Assembly: GCF_001277175.1 (NCBI RefSeq)
Contig: NZ_CP012257.1
Location: forward strand, 930,001 to 994,000
DNA length: 64,000 nt
Direction: 5' to 3'
From: Cronobacter universalis NCTC 9529
GTDB lineage: Bacteria; Pseudomonadota; Gammaproteobacteria; Enterobacterales; Enterobacteriaceae
The notes under the pieces are model-generated. The model did no database searches. It saw nothing but the letters and a program-made list of their open reading frames with translations, and was not told where the DNA came from. Both the position numbers and the translations under genes were made by a program. This document shows positions 10,611 to 18,893 of this stretch, piece after piece (positions within the stretch are counted from its first letter, which is position 1; each line of letters begins with the position of its first letter).

Positions 10611-11864
10611 ATGCTGGAGCAGATGGGCCAGGCGGCCAAAGCCGCCTCATATCAGATGGCGCTGCTCTCCTCGCGCGAGAAAAACCGCGTGCTGGAGAAA
10701 ATCGCCGACTATTTAGAAGCGAACGCCGAAGAGATTTTACTCGCCAACGAGCAGGACCTGCTTGAGGCGCGCCGCAGCGGGCTGAGCGAGGCGCTGTTAG
10801 ATCGCCTGGCGCTCAACCCGCAACGTTTACACGCCATTGCGAACGACGTGCGCCAGGTGTGTCAGCTGGCCGATCCGGTAGGGCAGGTGATTGACGGCGG
10901 CCTGCTGGAGAGCGGCCTGCGCATCGAGCGTCGCCGCGTGCCGCTCGGCGTGGTCGGCGTGATTTATGAAGCGCGCCCGAACGTGACGGTGGATGTCGCT
11001 TCGCTGTGCCTGAAAACCGGCAACGCGGCGATTCTCAGAGGCGGCAAAGAGACCTGGCGCACCAACGCGGCGACTGTAAAAGTGATCCAGAAAGCGCTGG
11101 AAGAGTGCGGCCTGCCCGCCGCGGCCGTTCAGGCCATCGAAAGCCCGGACCGCGCGCTGGTCAGTGAAATGCTGCGCATGGACAAATACATCGACATGCT
11201 GATCCCGCGCGGCGGGGCAGGGCTGCACAAGCTCTGCCGCGAGCAGTCGACCATTCCGGTTATCACCGGCGGCATCGGCGTGTGCCATATTTTCGTTGAT
11301 GAAACGGCGGAGTTCGCGCCTGCGCTCAAGATCATCACCAATGCCAAAACCCAGCGCCCGAGCACCTGTAACACGGTGGAAACACTGCTGGTGCATGAGG
11401 CTATTGCAGAACGTTTCCTGCCGGAACTGAGCCGCGCGATGCATGAGCGCGGCGTGACGCTGCACGCCGACGAGCGCGCGCTGGCGCTGCTTTCCGGCGG
11501 CCCGGCGACCGCTGTGGCGGTGACACCGGAAGCGTTCGACGACGAATGGTTGTCGCTCGATCTTAACGTGAAGCTGGTGGCAGGCATCGACGAGGCCATC
11601 GCGCATATTCGCGAGCACGGCACCCAACATTCGGACGCTATTCTCACCCGCACGCTGCGCCACGCCGACCGTTTCGTGAATGAAGTGGATTCTTCTGCGG
11701 TGTACGTGAACGCCTCGACGCGCTTTACCGACGGCGGGCAGTTTGGTCTTGGCGCCGAAGTGGCCGTCAGCACGCAGAAGCTTCACGCCCGCGGCCCGAT
11801 GGGCCTCGAAGCGCTGACCACCTACAAGTGGATCGGCTACGGCGACGATACGATTCGTGCTTAA
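10611..11864 (+). CDS. proA: Gamma-glutamyl phosphate reductase
   Basis: The protein has 417 residues, the standard length. NADPH-dependent second step of proline synthesis. Aldehyde-dehydrogenase fold: [34 protein letters not shown] and the catalytic cysteine in TQKPSTCNT-type motif (here [16 protein letters not shown]). The C-terminus has [26 protein letters not shown] precedes the ATG. It is co-transcribed with proB. Confidence 0.98.
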
Positions 11865-11873
11865 CTGAAGGCC

Positions 11874-11924
11874 GGGTGATGCAAAAATCGCCGCTTGAAT
11901 CGCAAGGGCATTGACGCATCACCC
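11874..11924 (+). terminator. Hairpin after proA (terminator-like)
   Basis: GGGTGATGC and GCATCACCC pair across a 33-nt loop and are followed by ACTTTTTC. The loop is long for a classical terminator, so it could also be a REP-type hairpin. Confidence 0.5.
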
Positions 11925-11972
11925 ACTTTTTCATAACCTCTTACCCCGTGCTCACGCACACCCTTCCTCAGG

Positions 11973-12048
11973 GCCGATATAGCTCAGTTGGTAGAGCAGC
12001 GCATTCGTAATGCGAAGGTCGTAGGTTCGACTCCTATTATCGGCACCA
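11973..12048 (+). tRNA. thrW: tRNA-Thr (anticodon CGT)
   Basis: The 76-nt cloverleaf runs from GCCGATATAGCTCAGTTGG to the encoded CCA, with anticodon loop ATTCGTAAT and T-loop GGTTCGACTCC. It matches E. coli thrW as I remember it. In E. coli K-12 this tRNA is the attachment site of prophage CP4-6, which fits the accessory DNA starting right behind it here. Confidence 0.97.
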
Positions 12049-12523
12049 CTTCTAATCAAACTTTACAAATCTTCCTTTCTATAAGCTATTTTTCTGTTCG
12101 ATAATTTTATTTGGTATAACAAAGAGTTATAAAAGCATTTTTTCTTTAAATATATGCTGCTTGTTGTATAGATATCCACTTACTTAACATATTTCTATAA
12201 AGTTTAGAACTCGCCTGCTTATAAAAAAATAAAAGATGATATATGCTAGCTGGATGTGGCGATTGTGATTAATATATCATTTTATTTTTAAAAAAAAGTA
12301 ACTGGAAGGATAAAATTCTTTTAATCAAAAAAGATGAGAGTTATTTATATTTTTTTTTGATAATTTATATCTTTTTGTTTTTATTGGAAATAAAAAACAA
12401 ATGTATATTTAAACAGTGGTTTTGATTTAAGAAATTTCTCCTACTTATTATCAAAAATAGTTCACCCTTTTGTTAAAATGTTATAGATTACGCCCATACA
12501 TTATCCATAGGATGGAATATAAA
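12049..12523. other. AT-rich spacer at the island start
   Basis: About 475 bp of very AT-rich DNA lies between the tRNA and the first defence gene. I see no gene, integrase remnant, or second copy of the tRNA 3' end. The promoter of the downstream operon must lie here but I cannot place it with confidence. Confidence 0.6.
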
Positions 12524-13255
12524 ATGTCTACTGAGCAGAAGGGCATTTGTATCAATGATAGTGAATGGGGTTGCAGACATACCGAATATCATTATCAAGA
12601 TAATGAGCCAACAATAATAGCTTGTATAGTGAACGTAGATAAAATAGATTTTATAGCAGCTGAGCTTGTTAAATCGGTTCTAGACACTTCTTGGATTTCA
12701 TCTCTTGATAGCGGTACACAGCTATCATATAGCTTTACAGCTAAAGAAACTGCTGAAGCTTTAGTTAAAGTTTTTAATAAAGTAATCGAAAATAAATCGC
12801 TCGAAGATGAGTTTGGTGAACTTATGGTTTCTATAGGCTCCTCTAGAGCACTAAGCCAGATACTTAAACATGTTTCACTCCCTATTGCAGAGTTATGGAA
12901 ACCGCAAGTAAAACAGAACGAGGGATTCGACTTTCATACAACATGTCCAAGCCAGTTTATAAATTTTGGTGAGGCTAAATTCTCTTCTTCTTCTAATCCT
13001 CATGGGAATGCTATCAATCAAGCAGTTGAATTCATTAGGCAAGAAAAGCATTTTAGAGATCGCGTTCACCTTATTAATTTATGCTCTCCTGATTCGGTTG
13101 CTAATTTAGATAAAAAAGAATTTGGTTTGATTGCGGCCTTCTCAATTAACTCTGAAAATTGTGAGAGGATCATGGATAATGCAATAAAGACAGTTAAGGG
13201 ATTGGAATTGTCAAAAATTGTTAAATTTATCTATTTGGTAGGTGTGAAATGTTAA
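12524..13255 (+). CDS. HamA-like nuclease (DUF1837-type) of a Hachiman-like defence pair
   Basis: The protein has 243 residues. A PD-(D/E)xK-like nuclease signature is visible: E99 in a helix, D136 in NEGFDFHTT, then E150-x-K152 in NFGEAKFSSSSNPHG. This layout and the partner helicase match HamA of Hachiman, where the helicase restrains the nuclease until DNA damage or phage replication releases it. The start at 12524 is chosen because AGGATGG precedes it at good spacing; 12512 and 12470 have none. Its stop overlaps the next start by 7 nt. Codon use and base composition are far more AT-rich than the backbone, indicating transfer. A different helicase-nuclease system such as AbpAB remains possible. 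Confidence 0.72.
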   Translation: MSTEQKGICINDSEWGCRHTEYHYQDNEPTIIACIVNVDKIDFIAAELVKSVLDTSWISSLDSGTQLSYSFTAKETAEALVKVFNKVIENKSLEDEFGELMVSIGSSRALSQILKHVSLPIAELWKPQVKQNEGFDFHTTCPSQFINFGEAKFSSSSNPHGNAINQAVEFIRQEKHFRDRVHLINLCSPDSVANLDKKEFGLIAAFSINSENCERIMDNAIKTVKGLELSKIVKFIYLVGVKC

Positions 13256-15525
13256 CAATTCAAAATATTATAGATGATCCTAATCCGAGGACAACTATTG
13301 GTGAAATTATTGAGGAATTACATAAAAATGGTCCTGTTAATAGTAAAATCATAGAAAGGCTTACTTATTATAAAGAGTTTCATCAGGAATGCTTTTCAGA
13401 GTTTGAAGAGAAAATAATTTCTGTACTTGGTCTTTTTTATAAAAATACAGAACCATCAAATATTTATTCTTTTATACTTGGAGCTATTGGGCATAAATAT
13501 AAATCATTATATGGGGAATATTTAACTCCAGTTCAAGCAAGCATTCGTCACGCAGTAGAAGAGAATAAATTTATCTCTATATCAGCTCCAACTAGTGCAG
13601 GTAAGTCTTTTTCAATAAAGGATTACATCAATCATCAAACTGGAGATGCTGTTATCATTGTTCCTTCTAGGGCTTTGATTGCTGAGTATGTGGAAAATTT
13701 AAGAGAGTACTTTGGGAATAATAAAGGTGTAATGATTAGCCCTTTTGTAGATTATGTATATACAGCTCGAAAATTAAGACGGATATTTGTCCTCACGCCG
13801 GAGAGAACTAAAGACTTGTCAGGTGTTAACCATAGATTGAATATTGAGTTATTCTTTTTTGATGAAGCCCAAGTTTCTGAAGAGCAAGATAGAGGAGTAA
13901 TATTTGATGCCACAGTGAGACGTGTTCAAAAGTTATTTCCACAGGCTAAATTTATATTTGCTCATCCATTTGTTGATAATCCTGAAGCCCAATTTAAAAA
14001 ACATGATATTGACGCTCCAAATAGCTATTCTCGAAGTTACACACATAATACAGTTGGTAAAATATTTATTCATGAACATAAAAATGGTAATGATTACTAC
14101 TTTTCTCCATATTCATCTAAAGGATATCTACTTGCGAAATCAGCGCCATATGAAGGAAAATTTGAGGATTTTGCCTTTTCAGGTAATAAATCAGTTCTTG
14201 TTTATGTGTCAAAAAAATCTGTTTATGACGGGAAATTCATAAATAAGTTCAAAAAATACACTTCGAATTTTAGTTTAATCGAAGATAAAAACGCCCGGTC
14301 GATAATTAAAATGGTTGAAAACATCTTAGGTGCCAACAATAAAAACCATATATCAAGAATGGTCGAGTTATTAAAGATTGGTGTTGTCATACATCATGGT
14401 TCTGTGCCTTTAGAAGTAAGATATTTGGTTGAAAGATTCATCAAAGGCGGATATGCGCGTATTTGCTTCGCAACAAGTACTTTAGCTCAAGGGATAAATA
14501 TGCCTTTTGATATTGTTTGGCTTGCTAACATGAGAATGAATGGCGATTCTGAGCAGAAGAGATGCTTGGCTTTTAAAAATTTAATTGGACGTAGTGGACG
14601 CTTATCTAAAGACAAAAAATTCGATTATGGTTACGTTTACACCCATAATGCTAAACTTTTATCAAGTCGTGTAAGGTCTTCTTTTAGATTAGAAGAGCAA
14701 TCAGTTCTTGAACATCCGGTGGATCATAATAATGACAATTATGAATTGGTTCAATCTATTATTGATGGGACTTTTAATGAGGATATAAATCTTCCAGTTT
14801 CTAAAATAGAAAGATTAAAACATGAAAAAGTAATTGAAAGTATTATTTGTATTTTAGATGTGGTCTTTCACGGCACATTCGGTGAGAGATTGAGCGGCGT
14901 TCAAAATAAAGATGTAAGAGAATTAATAAAATCAAAATTTTTAATAATATATGAGGCCTCTTTAGGTCGTTTGTTGCTTGATGGAGAGTTGAATGTATTC
15001 AACACAGCGATTGAAATTATATTTCACGTTATTGCTGGGCGATCCTTTAAAGAAATAGTCGGTATAAGATACAGCTACATTTCTGACAGGGATGGTGAGA
15101 ATAATGGTATACCTAGATTTTCTCAACCTGCCAATAAACTACCTGACAGTACATTGAACAGATCCTATTCTCTTTTTCGATCAAGTAAATCAAACGAAGT
15201 TAATTATGACACTATTGTTTTTGATACATATGATTATCTTGATACGGTTATTTCTTTCTCCTTAACTGATGTTTTTATAGGGGCGTTTAAAATATACTTG
15301 GCTGATACAAATGATAAAAGGGCAAAGGAGTTTATAGATTTCTTAAAATACGGAACGACGGATTATACAAGTATTATGTTGATGAGGTATGGGATCGCGC
15401 CTGAAGATGTTGCGGATATAACCCCATATGTTGACTATATATCAGAGGAAAGAATTGAATTAAATTCGGCAATATTACTTAGTGATGAAGAGTTGTTACA
15501 AAAAGTAAAATGGTATCTTCCGTGA
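13249..15525 (+). CDS. HamB-like superfamily 2 helicase
   Basis: The protein has 758 residues. Helicase motifs in order: Q-motif-like YLTPVQASI (92-100), Walker A SAPTSAGKS (112-120), motif Ia IIVPSRALIAE, Walker B variant FFDEAQ (203-208), then IHHGSVPLEVRYLVE, FATSTLAQGINMP (407-419) and arginine-finger motif LIGRSGRLS (445-453). The C-terminal 300 residues have no motif I recognise. It is translationally coupled to the nuclease gene. In Hachiman the HamB ATPase scans DNA and controls HamA. AT-rich, like its partner. Confidence 0.78.
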   Translation: MLTIQNIIDDPNPRTTIGEIIEELHKNGPVNSKIIERLTYYKEFHQECFSEFEEKIISVLGLFYKNTEPSNIYSFILGAIGHKYKSLYGEYLTPVQASIRHAVEENKFISISAPTSAGKSFSIKDYINHQTGDAVIIVPSRALIAEYVENLREYFGNNKGVMISPFVDYVYTARKLRRIFVLTPERTKDLSGVNHRLNIELFFFDEAQVSEEQDRGVIFDATVRRVQKLFPQAKFIFAHPFVDNPEAQFKKHDIDAPNSYSRSYTHNTVGKIFIHEHKNGNDYYFSPYSSKGYLLAKSAPYEGKFEDFAFSGNKSVLVYVSKKSVYDGKFINKFKKYTSNFSLIEDKNARSIIKMVENILGANNKNHISRMVELLKIGVVIHHGSVPLEVRYLVERFIKGGYARICFATSTLAQGINMPFDIVWLANMRMNGDSEQKRCLAFKNLIGRSGRLSKDKKFDYGYVYTHNAKLLSSRVRSSFRLEEQSVLEHPVDHNNDNYELVQSIIDGTFNEDINLPVSKIERLKHEKVIESIICILDVVFHGTFGERLSGVQNKDVRELIKSKFLIIYEASLGRLLLDGELNVFNTAIEIIFHVIAGRSFKEIVGIRYSYISDRDGENNGIPRFSQPANKLPDSTLNRSYSLFRSSKSNEVNYDTIVFDTYDYLDTVISFSLTDVFIGAFKIYLADTNDKRAKEFIDFLKYGTTDYTSIMLMRYGIAPEDVADITPYVDYISEERIELNSAILLSDEELLQKVKWYLP

Positions 15526-15851
15526 TTTTGAGGTTAATATGGGTGGGAGTATGGGGGTTACCATATCAAGCCCATATTTATTTAGGCTAATAATAAGTAA
15601 TGTAAATTCGTCGTTCACTATTACTCTAAACAAATCTGATTCATTCACTGTAATGGTTATATAAAACCTATACTGATATTTATTTCATGTCACTTGGGTG
15701 TTTTTATGTAATTTTTAGCATTTCTTAATAGTGGTGATTGAATTGTGTTAGGGGGCATGCTATCCATATTTTTATTTTATGAATGCATTAAGCGACTCGC
15801 TTAATAAAGCATAGTGAAAATAATAAAGAGGAGGTATTATTGATGGAATCG
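15526..15851. other. Spacer between the defence pair and the P4-like remnant
   Basis: About 325 bp, AT-rich, with no gene I can support. A GAGGAGGT at 15829-15836 precedes only a four-codon frame. No copy of the tRNA 3' end was found to mark an attachment site. Confidence 0.5.
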
Positions 15852-16019
15852 TTATAGTTCTTCATTTTTTCTGCTCTCAATCTCTTTCTTTAAAGCCTCA
15901 ACAACAAACTGCCCAATACTCTCGCCTTGCTTTCGCATCTTTTGCATTTCCCGCACAATTTCATGGGGTACGCGAGCGGCGAGGGTTTGAGACTTTCCAT
16001 TGACTGCTTTGGTGGCCAT
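15852..16019 (-). CDS. Small ribbon-helix-helix-like protein (YlcI/YnfO type)
   Basis: The protein has 55 residues starting MATKAVNGKSQTLAARVP, with AGAGGATAAC as ribosome-binding site on the reverse strand. The pattern 'TLAARVPHEIVREMQKMRKQ' followed by a charged helix (GESIGQFVVEALKKEI) resembles the short Arc-like YlcI/YnfO proteins of prophages. Probably DNA-binding. It is divergent from the P4-like immunity region, suggesting a regulator of that remnant. The frame stays open upstream to 16553, but that extension is antisense to the next gene. Confidence 0.65.
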   Translation of the reverse strand: MATKAVNGKSQTLAARVPHEIVREMQKMRKQGESIGQFVVEALKKEIESRKNEEL

Positions 16020-16104
16020 TCTAGTTATCCTCTGATTTAAACGCTTTGTCTTTAATAACACACTTTTCAAGATTGCAGTGTTGAACACATTACGAGTAAT
16101 GTTT

Positions 16105-16175
16105 GCCTTATCTGAGCCCTCCGGCTCAATAAGCGAGACCCGAAAGTGCGCCAACACTTCCGGGCCTCTGACCAC
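16105..16175 (+). ncRNA. P4-satellite CI-like immunity RNA (candidate)
   Basis: Two hairpins in tandem: GAGCC/GGCTC (16114-16127) and AGACCCGAAAGTG pairing with CACTTCCGGGCCTCT around CGCCAA (16136-16169). This resembles the leader region of P4-type satellites, where the CI RNA forms such a hairpin just upstream of a short ORF. It is followed by TTGGAGC and the ATG at 16198. Assignment is by memory of P4-like leaders only. Confidence 0.45.
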
Positions 16176-16197
16176 AAACGTTATTGGAGCTAACGCT

Positions 16198-16767
16198 ATG
16201 GCTAACGTCAATAGTAACACACCCGCACGCCCTGAAAATGAGGGCCATAATCTCAATCTGAACGCTACCGCCACCCCGATGCCGCCGTCGGCGCATTCCA
16301 GAATGTTGAGCCTGCATACGCTGTGCGAAGGGCCGATCACGGCGGAAATGGATTTTTTCACGCTCGCCACGTTATGTGAAGAGACGGTCAGCGAACTGAT
16401 TGAGTGTAAGTACGCGACGCTGTTTCTGGCGCTGGCCGGGAGACTGGCGCTGATGCTGGAATCCCTCGCGGCCGAGCTCGACAGACCGGTGCCGGCGCAT
16501 CTGTTTGCTTCACTGACGGCCGACTCGCTCCCTTCAGAGGTGCCGTTCTGCATCGGCAGCGACGCGCAGATGCTGAGCCGCTACTGTAAAGCGCTGAACA
16601 TGGCGTTGATAAGCCGCGCGCACCCGCCGGAAATGGCGGAAACGCTCACGGGGCTGCTGTTTGATCTCGTGAATCATCTGGTGGAATTTGTGAGAGAGCC
16701 CTGTTTTGTGCGCACTGAGGAGGGCTATGAAGACTGGGCCGGGCAGCACGTCATGTCGCTGAACTGA
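16198..16767 (+). CDS. Uncharacterised P4-like island protein
   Basis: The protein has 189 residues from ATG 16198 (MANVNSNTPARPENEG), with TTGGAGC upstream. The same frame is open from 16078, but that stretch covers the hairpin leader. I do not recognise a family. There is a low-complexity polar N-terminus (about 35 residues), then an alpha-helical domain with a hydrophobic helix ECKYATLFLALAGRLALMLE and a C-terminal helical half. No signal peptide. GC-rich, unlike the defence genes before it, so it probably arrived separately. It is closed by a strong terminator. Confidence 0.6.
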   Translation: MANVNSNTPARPENEGHNLNLNATATPMPPSAHSRMLSLHTLCEGPITAEMDFFTLATLCEETVSELIECKYATLFLALAGRLALMLESLAAELDRPVPAHLFASLTADSLPSEVPFCIGSDAQMLSRYCKALNMALISRAHPPEMAETLTGLLFDLVNHLVEFVREPCFVRTEEGYEDWAGQHVMSLN

Positions 16768-16847: not shown

Positions 16848-17291
16848 TTATTCCAGGCTCGTTATGTGAAGCATCTGTATTTCTTTTATACGCTGACTGT
16901 TCATATTGATATTACAGGCCGTGGCGGCATTCCCCAGGTAATGCGTGCTCGCTGCTTCTGCCACTGCAACGCCGCAATAATCATCGCGATATTTAAGCCA
17001 TTCGGCCTGGCTTCTTTTGAATAATTCAATCATCCGTTTTTTGCGGTCTTCATCGCCCATCCACCATTTAGTGTAATCAAAGTTCTCCATCTCTTTAAGC
17101 TTGTCCGCATAAGCCTTATTGAGCGCCCCGGTGGATTTCTCATCAATGTCGGCTAAGCATTCGATGTTCTCGTCGCCATATTGATCTTCGCAGGCTTTCA
17201 CTTCGTCGTTTCTTATTACGTTTGCTGTCTCAGCCGCCAGCGAAGCGTAGCTGACCAGCAGCACAGAAATGATAAAAACGATTTTTTTCAT
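16848..17291 (-). CDS. LprI-domain periplasmic protein, copy 1 (candidate immunity protein)
   Basis: The precursor has 147 residues with signal peptide MKKIVFIISVLLVSYASLAA. The mature part has the DUF1311/LprI layout: a first Cys near residue 34 (KACEDQYGD), ECLADIDEK, then WLKYRDDYCGV and a late Cys in TACNINMN, i.e. four cysteines likely forming two disulfides in the periplasm. It shares DYTKWWMGDEDRKKRMIE with copies 2 and 4. LprI of Mycobacterium is reported to inhibit lysozyme, so an inhibitor of the lysozyme-like protein encoded at 18890-19828 is plausible but unproven. Confidence 0.75.
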   Translation of the reverse strand: MKKIVFIISVLLVSYASLAAETANVIRNDEVKACEDQYGDENIECLADIDEKSTGALNKAYADKLKEMENFDYTKWWMGDEDRKKRMIELFKRSQAEWLKYRDDYCGVAVAEAASTHYLGNAATACNINMNSQRIKEIQMLHITSLE

Positions 17292-17434
17292 TGCAGTAAA
17301 TCCCTTACTTTTCGTCTTGAGCCTGAACCCTGAATATCGCCATTCTACTGTGCGTAGCCGCCTTTAACCGACATCTCTTTATAATAAAAATCTGTCATCC
17401 TGCCAGACGCGTTAGCAAGGGTAGCCAGGGTTCT

Positions 17435-17878
17435 TCACCGTGTCGTCTCAACCACTATCAACTGTATCTCTTTGATGCGCCGTTTATTCATATTGATGGT
17501 ACAGCCTGTCCACGCTGCGCCAATAAAATGCGTTTCCTGCTCGCCGATAGTCGCTACCTCGCAGTAACTATCCCGGTAGGTCAGCCAGCCACGCTGGCTT
17601 TTGCGAAAAGCCTCAATCATCCGTTTTTTACGGTCTTCATCGCCCATCCACCATTTGGTGTAATCAACACGCTCCAGCGCTTTAAGCTTCGTCTCATACG
17701 CCTTTTTGAGTTCGGCTTCGGTTTTCTCATTGAGATCTTCCAGACACTCGCTACTGAATTCGTAATACCTATCTAAGCACTGGTCGACGGCGTTATCCGC
17801 GGTAATATCTTTCTGATCGGCAGCCATTAACGTGTGGCTGATCAAAAGCGTGGAAAAGAGGAATACGATTTTTTTCAT
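17435..17878 (-). CDS. LprI-domain periplasmic protein, copy 2
   Basis: The precursor has 147 residues. The signal peptide (MKKIVFLFSTLLISHTLMAA) resembles copy 1, while the mature protein is nearly the same as copy 4, e.g. SSECLEDLNEKTEAELKKAY and DYTKWWMGDEDRKKRMIEAF. The four LprI-type cysteines are conserved (QCLDRYYEFSSEC, DSYCEV, GCTINMN). The split relationship suggests recombination among the tandem genes. Its own 5' region separates it from copy 3, so it may have its own promoter. Confidence 0.75.
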   Translation of the reverse strand: MKKIVFLFSTLLISHTLMAADQKDITADNAVDQCLDRYYEFSSECLEDLNEKTEAELKKAYETKLKALERVDYTKWWMGDEDRKKRMIEAFRKSQRGWLTYRDSYCEVATIGEQETHFIGAAWTGCTINMNKRRIKEIQLIVVETTR

Positions 17879-17944
17879 TGCGGTAATTCCTTTACTTTTA
17901 TCCTTTATCTCCGCGTTACATGCAGTCTGTAGAGGGCATAACTA

Positions 17945-18406
17945 TCAGGGTGTTAGCCCGTACAGACTTTCAATCTCATGCTGCCGTGCATGATTCATGT
18001 CGATAACACACTGAGTCCCAATGTCGTACTGCGTGGGTGCCCATTCCCCGACAAGAGAAGCGCGCGCCGTACAGAATGCCTCTCTGGATTGCAGCCAGAG
18101 CGCCTGTGAGCGTGCAAACCTTTCCCGGAAGACGGCGCTCATCGTCACGCCTCCCAAATCGTTTAATTTAAAGGAATCGTCATAATTGTTATCGATTGTT
18201 TGATAGAGCCGTTCAATGGCCTTACTGAGCGCCTCATCAGAACGTTCTCTCGCCTGTGCTTTGCACTCTGACTGGCTTTTCCCATCTTCTGCATATTCCG
18301 GCAGAGAAAAGCAGGGAGCGAGTTCTTTACCAAACTGAAAAGAAACGGCCTGTGCGGCAGCAGGAATAAAAGGCATCGCGATGAGAAGAGCCTTTATTAA
18401 CTTCAT
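17945..18406 (-). CDS. Divergent LprI-like periplasmic protein, copy 3
   Basis: The precursor has 153 residues with signal peptide MKLIKALLIAMPFIPAAAQA. It keeps the cysteine and charge layout of LprI-type proteins (APCFSLPEYAEDG, SQSECKAQARERSDEALSKA, SREAFCTARA, TQCVIDMNHARQHEIESLY) but lacks the WWMGDEDRKK block. It sits between the two most similar copies, so it could recognise a different target. Function is inferred from context only. Confidence 0.68.
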   Translation of the reverse strand: MKLIKALLIAMPFIPAAAQAVSFQFGKELAPCFSLPEYAEDGKSQSECKAQARERSDEALSKAIERLYQTIDNNYDDSFKLNDLGGVTMSAVFRERFARSQALWLQSREAFCTARASLVGEWAPTQYDIGTQCVIDMNHARQHEIESLYGLTP

Positions 18407-18449
18407 CTTTTTATCAGGCTCCGTTGGGGTAGCGTTCCTTCATAATCCT

Positions 18450-18893
18450 TCACCGTTTCATCTCAACCTCTGTCAACTGTATCTCTTTGATGCGCCGTTT
18501 GTTCATATTGATGTTACAGCCTACCGACGCCGCACCGAGAAAGTGAGTACCCTGGGCTGCGGTAGTCGCTACGTCGCAGTAACCGTCCCGGTAGGTCAGC
18601 CAGTCACGCTGGCTTTTGCGAAAGGCCTCAATCATCCTTTTTTTACGGTCTTCATCGCCCATCCACCATTTGGTGTAATCAACACGCTCCAGCGATTTAA
18701 GCTTCGTCTCATACGCCTTTTTGAGTTCGGCTTCGGTTTTATCGTTGAGATCTTCCAGACACTCGCTGCTGAACTCGTAATACTTATCTAAGCACTGGTC
18801 GACGGCGTTATCAGAAGTAATGTCTTTTTCATCTGCCGCCAGCGAAGCGGTAGCTATCATTAACAACGGGATTATTGCCAGGATCCTCTTCAT
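18450..18893 (-). CDS. LprI-domain periplasmic protein, copy 4 (paired with the lysozyme-like gene)
   Basis: The precursor has 147 residues with signal peptide MKRILAIIPLLMIATASLAA. The mature sequence is nearly identical to copy 2. Its ATG overlaps the stop of the lysozyme-like gene (ATGA-type overlap at 18890-18893), making it the most likely cognate immunity gene of that putative effector. Periplasmic location fits neutralisation of a peptidoglycan-cutting enzyme. Confidence 0.77.
   Translation of the reverse strand: MKRILAIIPLLMIATASLAADEKDITSDNAVDQCLDKYYEFSSECLEDLNDKTEAELKKAYETKLKSLERVDYTKWWMGDEDRKKRMIEAFRKSQRDWLTYRDGYCDVATTAAQGTHFLGAASVGCNINMNKRRIKEIQLTEVEMKR

Follow-up and report, generated by a model that had tools for sequence, protein, structure and literature searches.

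In type I Hachiman, as found in Escherichia coli ECOR31 (PDB 8VX9), the nuclease HamA (PF08878/DUF1837) is paired with HamB, a helicase of 1174 amino acids (aa; 8vx9_B), and the HamA metal site, according to PMC12278908, is a D-GExK motif that includes E138 and K140. Type II Hachiman consists of HamABC, where HamC carries DUF3223 (PMC8565338). AbpAB of E. coli K-12 (PDB 8ZUE) combines a 729-aa helicase, AbpB, with the 538-aa AbpA, in which, again following PMC12278908, a Cap4-like N-terminal nuclease domain is joined to a catalytically inactive, ‘enigmatic’ HamA-like part. A further entry, PDB 9WH1, holds a 528-aa AbpA/HamA C-terminal domain protein together with an 853-aa helicase. Here we describe a nuclease-helicase gene pair in a 64,000-nucleotide (nt) stretch of the Cronobacter universalis NCTC 9529 chromosome (NZ_CP012257.1, positions 930,001 to 994,000; hereafter the window), which is very probably a Hachiman-type (HamAB) anti-phage system, compact and divergent in sequence, located in a variable interval behind the tRNA gene thrW.

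With Hachiman the pair shares the D-GExK site, the predicted HamA fold and an adjacent Ski2-like superfamily 2 (SF2) helicase, and with type II the hamA-hamB core. It differs from type I in the length of its helicase (758 aa) and in its nuclease, which the HamA models of Pfam and PADLOC do not match, and from type II in the absence of HamC beside it, its neighbors being proA/thrW and a gene at 16198-16767 without a Pfam family (E<=0.001). Its helicase is similar in size to AbpB; its nuclease, however, is only 243 aa long, has no fused domain and retains an intact D-GExK site. The HamA part of the 528-aa partner in 9WH1, in contrast, aligns without the E-x-K residues that the window nuclease possesses.

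The nuclease has an invariant metal site and a predicted HamA fold

A first-pass annotation of this DNA had proposed a nuclease with D136 and E150-x-K152 as part of a Hachiman-like pair, and had held that loss of E150 and K152 in homologues would speak against such a pair. We found D136, G149, E150 and K152 to be invariant in 39/39, 26/26 and 25/25 aligned sequences (overlapping sets; the 39 include the window protein). Further invariant residues are A151, which lies within G149-E150-A151-K152, the FGE at residues 97-99, and K175. As for the fold, when the structure encoded at 12524-13255 was predicted, as the annotation had suggested, HamA was its top PDB match, aligned over model residues 9-243; the structural alignment to HamA of the ECOR31 Hachiman shows 9% identity. 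The C-terminal half of AbpA ranked third among the fold matches. A longer form of the protein, starting from a TTG at 12470, is possible. In Pfam, NCBIfam and PADLOC the nuclease had matches at chance level only (OPA3, REase_II and ZorC).

The helicase is of the HamB type

The helicase carries the motifs listed in Table 1, including the DEAQ box recognized in the first-pass annotation, in which D205, E206 and A207 do not vary, and Q208 hardly does, across 22 aligned helicases. HamB models are its best PADLOC matches (HamB1, 2e-56) and match 22/22 helicases of the family. Ahead of residue 90, residues 4-88 are mostly predicted helix, and this region may correspond to the N-terminal HamA-binding bundle (NAH) of HamB. 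The best PDB sequence match, from residue 15 onward, is 9wh1_B (profile E 9.4e-34). This chain is labelled ‘DNA polymerase theta (Helicase domain only)’, yet its partner in the complex is a HamA C-terminal domain protein and it resembles HamB; the label may be a mis-annotation.

The similarity in size to AbpB is also the starting point of a different assignment, in which the pair is of the AbpAB rather than the HamAB type, and the nuclease corresponds to the HamA-like half of an AbpA that never gained, or has lost, its Cap4-like nuclease. AbpB (8zue_B) is the fullest structural match of the helicase (576 residues aligned, covering model residues 1-749), the AbpA C-terminal half is among the best fold matches of the nuclease, as noted above, and in a FastTree phylogeny AbpB falls on the same side of a 0.984 split as the window helicase family. 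However, in sequence the helicase resembles AbpB only weakly (2e-8 by phmmer within a small set; 4e-5 against the PDB), and the two hallmarks of AbpA, the fused Cap4-like domain and the inactive HamA-like part, are contradicted here by an unfused nuclease whose D-GExK site is intact in all aligned sequences. We therefore consider an AbpAB-type pair unlikely. The tree was midpoint-rooted without a Hel308/Ski2 outgroup; a SngC family search for outgroups was unspecific (324 of 340 genomes), and one of the five loci used from it was left out of the tree, its best frame being shorter than 600 aa.

The two genes form a conserved unit

A family scan with one genome per species yielded 25 loci, and a DNA search detected the family in 4 of 5426 E. 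coli genomes, two of whose loci were read. The helicase gene lies directly downstream of the nuclease gene in 27/27 loci. In the window the two overlap by 7 nt, as first described (ATGTTAA, 13249-13255), and in 25 pairs, the window included, the overlap ranges from 1 to 20 nt; left out of this set were L014 (helicase split), L024 (helicase cut by the contig end) and L020 (nuclease frame short). Over the same 25 pairs, the distance matrices of nuclease and helicase correlate with r 0.89, as compared to a maximum of 0.38 in 5000 permutations, a correlation to which shared descent contributes. Of eight window comparisons, five allowed dS to be computed; in these the ratio of nonsynonymous to synonymous substitution rates (dN/dS) was 0.06-0.14, values that are rough because dS is high (1.2-2.2). 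The pair is under purifying selection. No flanking gene family recurred in more than 2 of the 24 loci examined (L013, L015 and L024, on short contigs, were left out); a third component is therefore unsupported, and the pair looks like a stand-alone module.

The titled hosts of the loci are gammaproteobacteria, Oceanicaulis, Massilia, Campylobacterales, Pedobacter, Mucilaginibacter and Opitutaceae. Closer to the window, the family was present in 2 of 60 relatives, i.e., the genome itself and an order-mate (G040, 35% identity), and in none of six same-genus siblings. Of 369 genomes sampled across the class, 1, the window’s own, matched the family profile and 6 matched Pfam HamA; Pfam HamA was not found in the window’s genome, and the same search matched no control genome either. 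The surroundings of the pair vary: in both L010 and L019 it is preceded by one kind of gene, read as guaA; in E. coli LR-29-1 it belongs to an island next to dusC that also carries recombinases and an anti-phage dCTP deaminase; and in Phytobacter an integrase lies 234 base pairs (bp) away.

Such variable insertion spots, the integrases or recombinases nearby in some hosts and the rarity of the family in E. coli would also suit a nuclease-helicase module of another purpose, e.g., competition between mobile elements or plasmid removal, in which the Hachiman fold responds to a different trigger. Yet tblastn (E<=1e-5) found the nuclease in 0 of 72,556 plasmid and 0 of 50,697 phage records, the helicase matches in 98 plasmid and 2 phage records were all partial and below 60% identity, and those relatives in sequence or fold that have a known function are phage-defence systems. 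On this evidence another purpose is improbable.

In two hosts distant from each other, Shewanella (L004, 8981-9898) and G040 (L043, 7815-8726, minus strand), a NERD-domain (PF08378) protein of ~305 aa is encoded 74-79 bp upstream of the nuclease, and is possibly an accessory nuclease of a subset of loci.

Behind thrW, the pair sits in an interval that varies between siblings

A 649-bp proA-thrW stretch was present in 7/7 genomes of the genus that were searched (the window’s own genome counted). In 6/6 same-genus siblings, similarity to the window ends at 12048-12059 and, within the 14 kilobases fetched, resumes at 15867 (G003), 16048 (G002) or 16146 (G005 and G006); the right border with the chromosome common to the siblings is thus found at about 15867 to 16146. 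In two siblings (G001 and G004) an integrase gene (PF00589) adjoins thrW, and each holds two extra copies of the tRNA 3' end, 42-49 bp long. The others differ in cargo or have little of it: G003 has a SocA/Panacea gene, G005 one gene (644 aa) and G002 three genes, none of these four with a Pfam match, and G006 short frames only. PADLOC gave no match (E<=0.001) in the scanned cargo genes of G002, G003 and G005. The sibling borders, integrases and differing cargo together show that this integration site is used by members of the genus and that the interval holding the pair is variable.

The pair is AT-rich in a chromosome that is not, just as initially annotated, with a guanine-cytosine (GC) content of 33.2% as compared to 58.7% in the rest of the window. 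The accompanying claim, that it begins right after the tRNA-Thr, is true of the foreign stretch but not of the gene, whose ATG lies 475 bp 3' of the tRNA. The final ~80 bp of the intervening leader are 73% identical to the corresponding position in Phytobacter (L003). Promoter consensus matches in the leader were no commoner than in shuffled sequences, a terminator scan at the locus did no better than shuffles, and thrW was the sole Rfam match in 11800-15867.

An island flanked by attachment (att) repeats was considered and found unsupported: the window holds no second copy of the last 25 thrW bases (<=3 mismatches), and whole-genome BLAST with the tRNA returned only 72-78% matches at other tRNA-like places, a search that a very short repeat could escape. 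The missing repeat, the lack of any other integrase-sized frame between thrW and the shared right flank, and the damage seen elsewhere in the family (the helicase split in L014, one of 27 related loci, and in G040, a distant relative; the nuclease shortened in L020) could be taken to mean that the pair no longer works and is the decaying remnant of an island whose integrase is gone. Both frames of the window pair are open, however, with all motifs intact and the low dN/dS given above, making a relic very improbable.

Separately, the integrase-bearing element at thrW in sibling G004 encodes an 864-aa PDC-S06 phage-defence-candidate protein (L063, 3403-5997, minus strand; 2.2e-182 to the PADLOC model).

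Table 1. Features of the thrW locus (window coordinates) and motifs of the helicase (residue numbers)
Feature	Position	Strand	Basis or remark
tRNA-Thr(CGT), thrW position behind proA	11973-12048	+	ARAGORN; left border of variable stretch
AT-rich leader, 23.4% GC	12049-12523		between thrW and nuclease ATG
HamA-like PD-(D/E)xK nuclease, 243 aa	12524-13255	+	open frame, invariant motif residues, predicted fold
HamB-like Ski2-type SF2 helicase, 758 aa	13249-15525	+	open frame, profile matches, helicase motifs
Right part of variable stretch, AT-rich (36% GC)	15526-16045		composition and sibling comparison
Helicase motif I	residues 112-120		SAPTSAGKS
Helicase DEAQ box	residues 205-208
Helicase motif V	residues 411-419		TLAQGINMP
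Helicase motif VI	residues 444-451		NLIGRSGR

Assignment to Hachiman and proposed mechanism

Several observations weigh against a Hachiman assignment. No HamA model of Pfam, PADLOC or NCBIfam matched the window nuclease at E<=1; among 39 family members the Pfam model matched one (E 0.0012), and the PADLOC model none at E<=0.1. PDB sequence searches with the nuclease and with its family profile returned nothing real, and the family profile found no HamA there. Profile-profile alignment (hhalign) gave probabilities of 28.7% against six HamAs and of 25% (local) and 18.9% (global) against 123; in a permutation control the real alignment, at 6.0%, exceeded the permutations. These probabilities are low (6-29%), and after this control we keep the match as no more than weak evidence for a relationship to HamA. 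The helicase, by Foldseek and VIA, is not clearly nearer to HamB than to Pol theta, Hel308 and other SF2 helicases; its best NCBIfam models are of the Hel308 type, far under their cut-offs; the best-fitting HamB model has matches, most of them weak, in 23 of 340 genomes and in 10 of 14 control genomes as well; and a long branch (1.6) leads to the helicase family in the midpoint-rooted tree. The high dS counts here too; next to the pair in the window we identified no known defence gene, nor did we find an experiment on any family member.

The profile search put forward in the first-pass annotation succeeded for the helicase but not for the nuclease, and neither of the two outcomes that the annotation had named as refuting was obtained. 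We read the failure of the HamA models as a limit of their reach, because the HamA fold and the D-GExK site are both present; with a HamB-type helicase adjacent, this makes the pair a variant of the Hachiman kind and not an ordinary member, in agreement with the divergent HamA/HamB layout originally suggested.

If the pair works as the ECOR31 Hachiman does, its proteins would form a complex in which the helicase surveys intact DNA while the nuclease is kept inactive. Upon meeting 3' single-stranded or damaged DNA, arising for instance from phage replication, ATP-driven movement of the helicase would set the nuclease free or switch it on, and phage and host DNA alike would then be degraded at its D136/E150/K152 metal site. 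The cell would die without releasing phage, an abortive infection that would amount to phage defence. These functional steps are drawn from the Hachiman work in PMC12278908.

That neither protein has close relatives that can be named, as first stated, was half borne out: the nuclease has 1041 related protein clusters at E<=0.01, in varied hosts, but among the 120 listed most lack a source name, and wherever a name is given it is ‘hypothetical protein’. With the family recognized, the catalogue of defence systems would gain a compact form of Hachiman, and structural studies of how a helicase restrains a nuclease would gain a smaller pair to work with; for AbpAB, whose HamA half is described as inactive in PMC12278908, it would offer an unfused, catalytically intact reference. 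More tentatively, the family could represent a separate, widely spread ‘minimal Hachiman’ lineage (an unfused, active HamA with an AbpB-sized HamB) missed by the annotation models tested. Possibly this lineage retains an ancestral form that gave rise to AbpAB and the fusion Hachimans once another effector was added and the HamA active site was lost, and a few members perhaps use the additional upstream NERD nuclease gene. Literature searches listed no named short-HamA lineage.

Features to the right of the pair

Beyond the variable stretch, Rfam placed a symR match (SymR antitoxin RNA) at 16132-16203 on the minus strand (47.5 bits against a gathering threshold of 61; E 5.4e-7). It runs antisense to the gene at 16198-16767, covering the leader and the start of that gene, which recurs in four sibling species and is no obvious SymE; the match is a putative SymR-like antisense RNA. 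Further on, 16848-18893 (minus strand) encodes several tandem paralogous, small, secreted-looking proteins, which we take to be LprI-like, and whose number appears to differ between sibling species.
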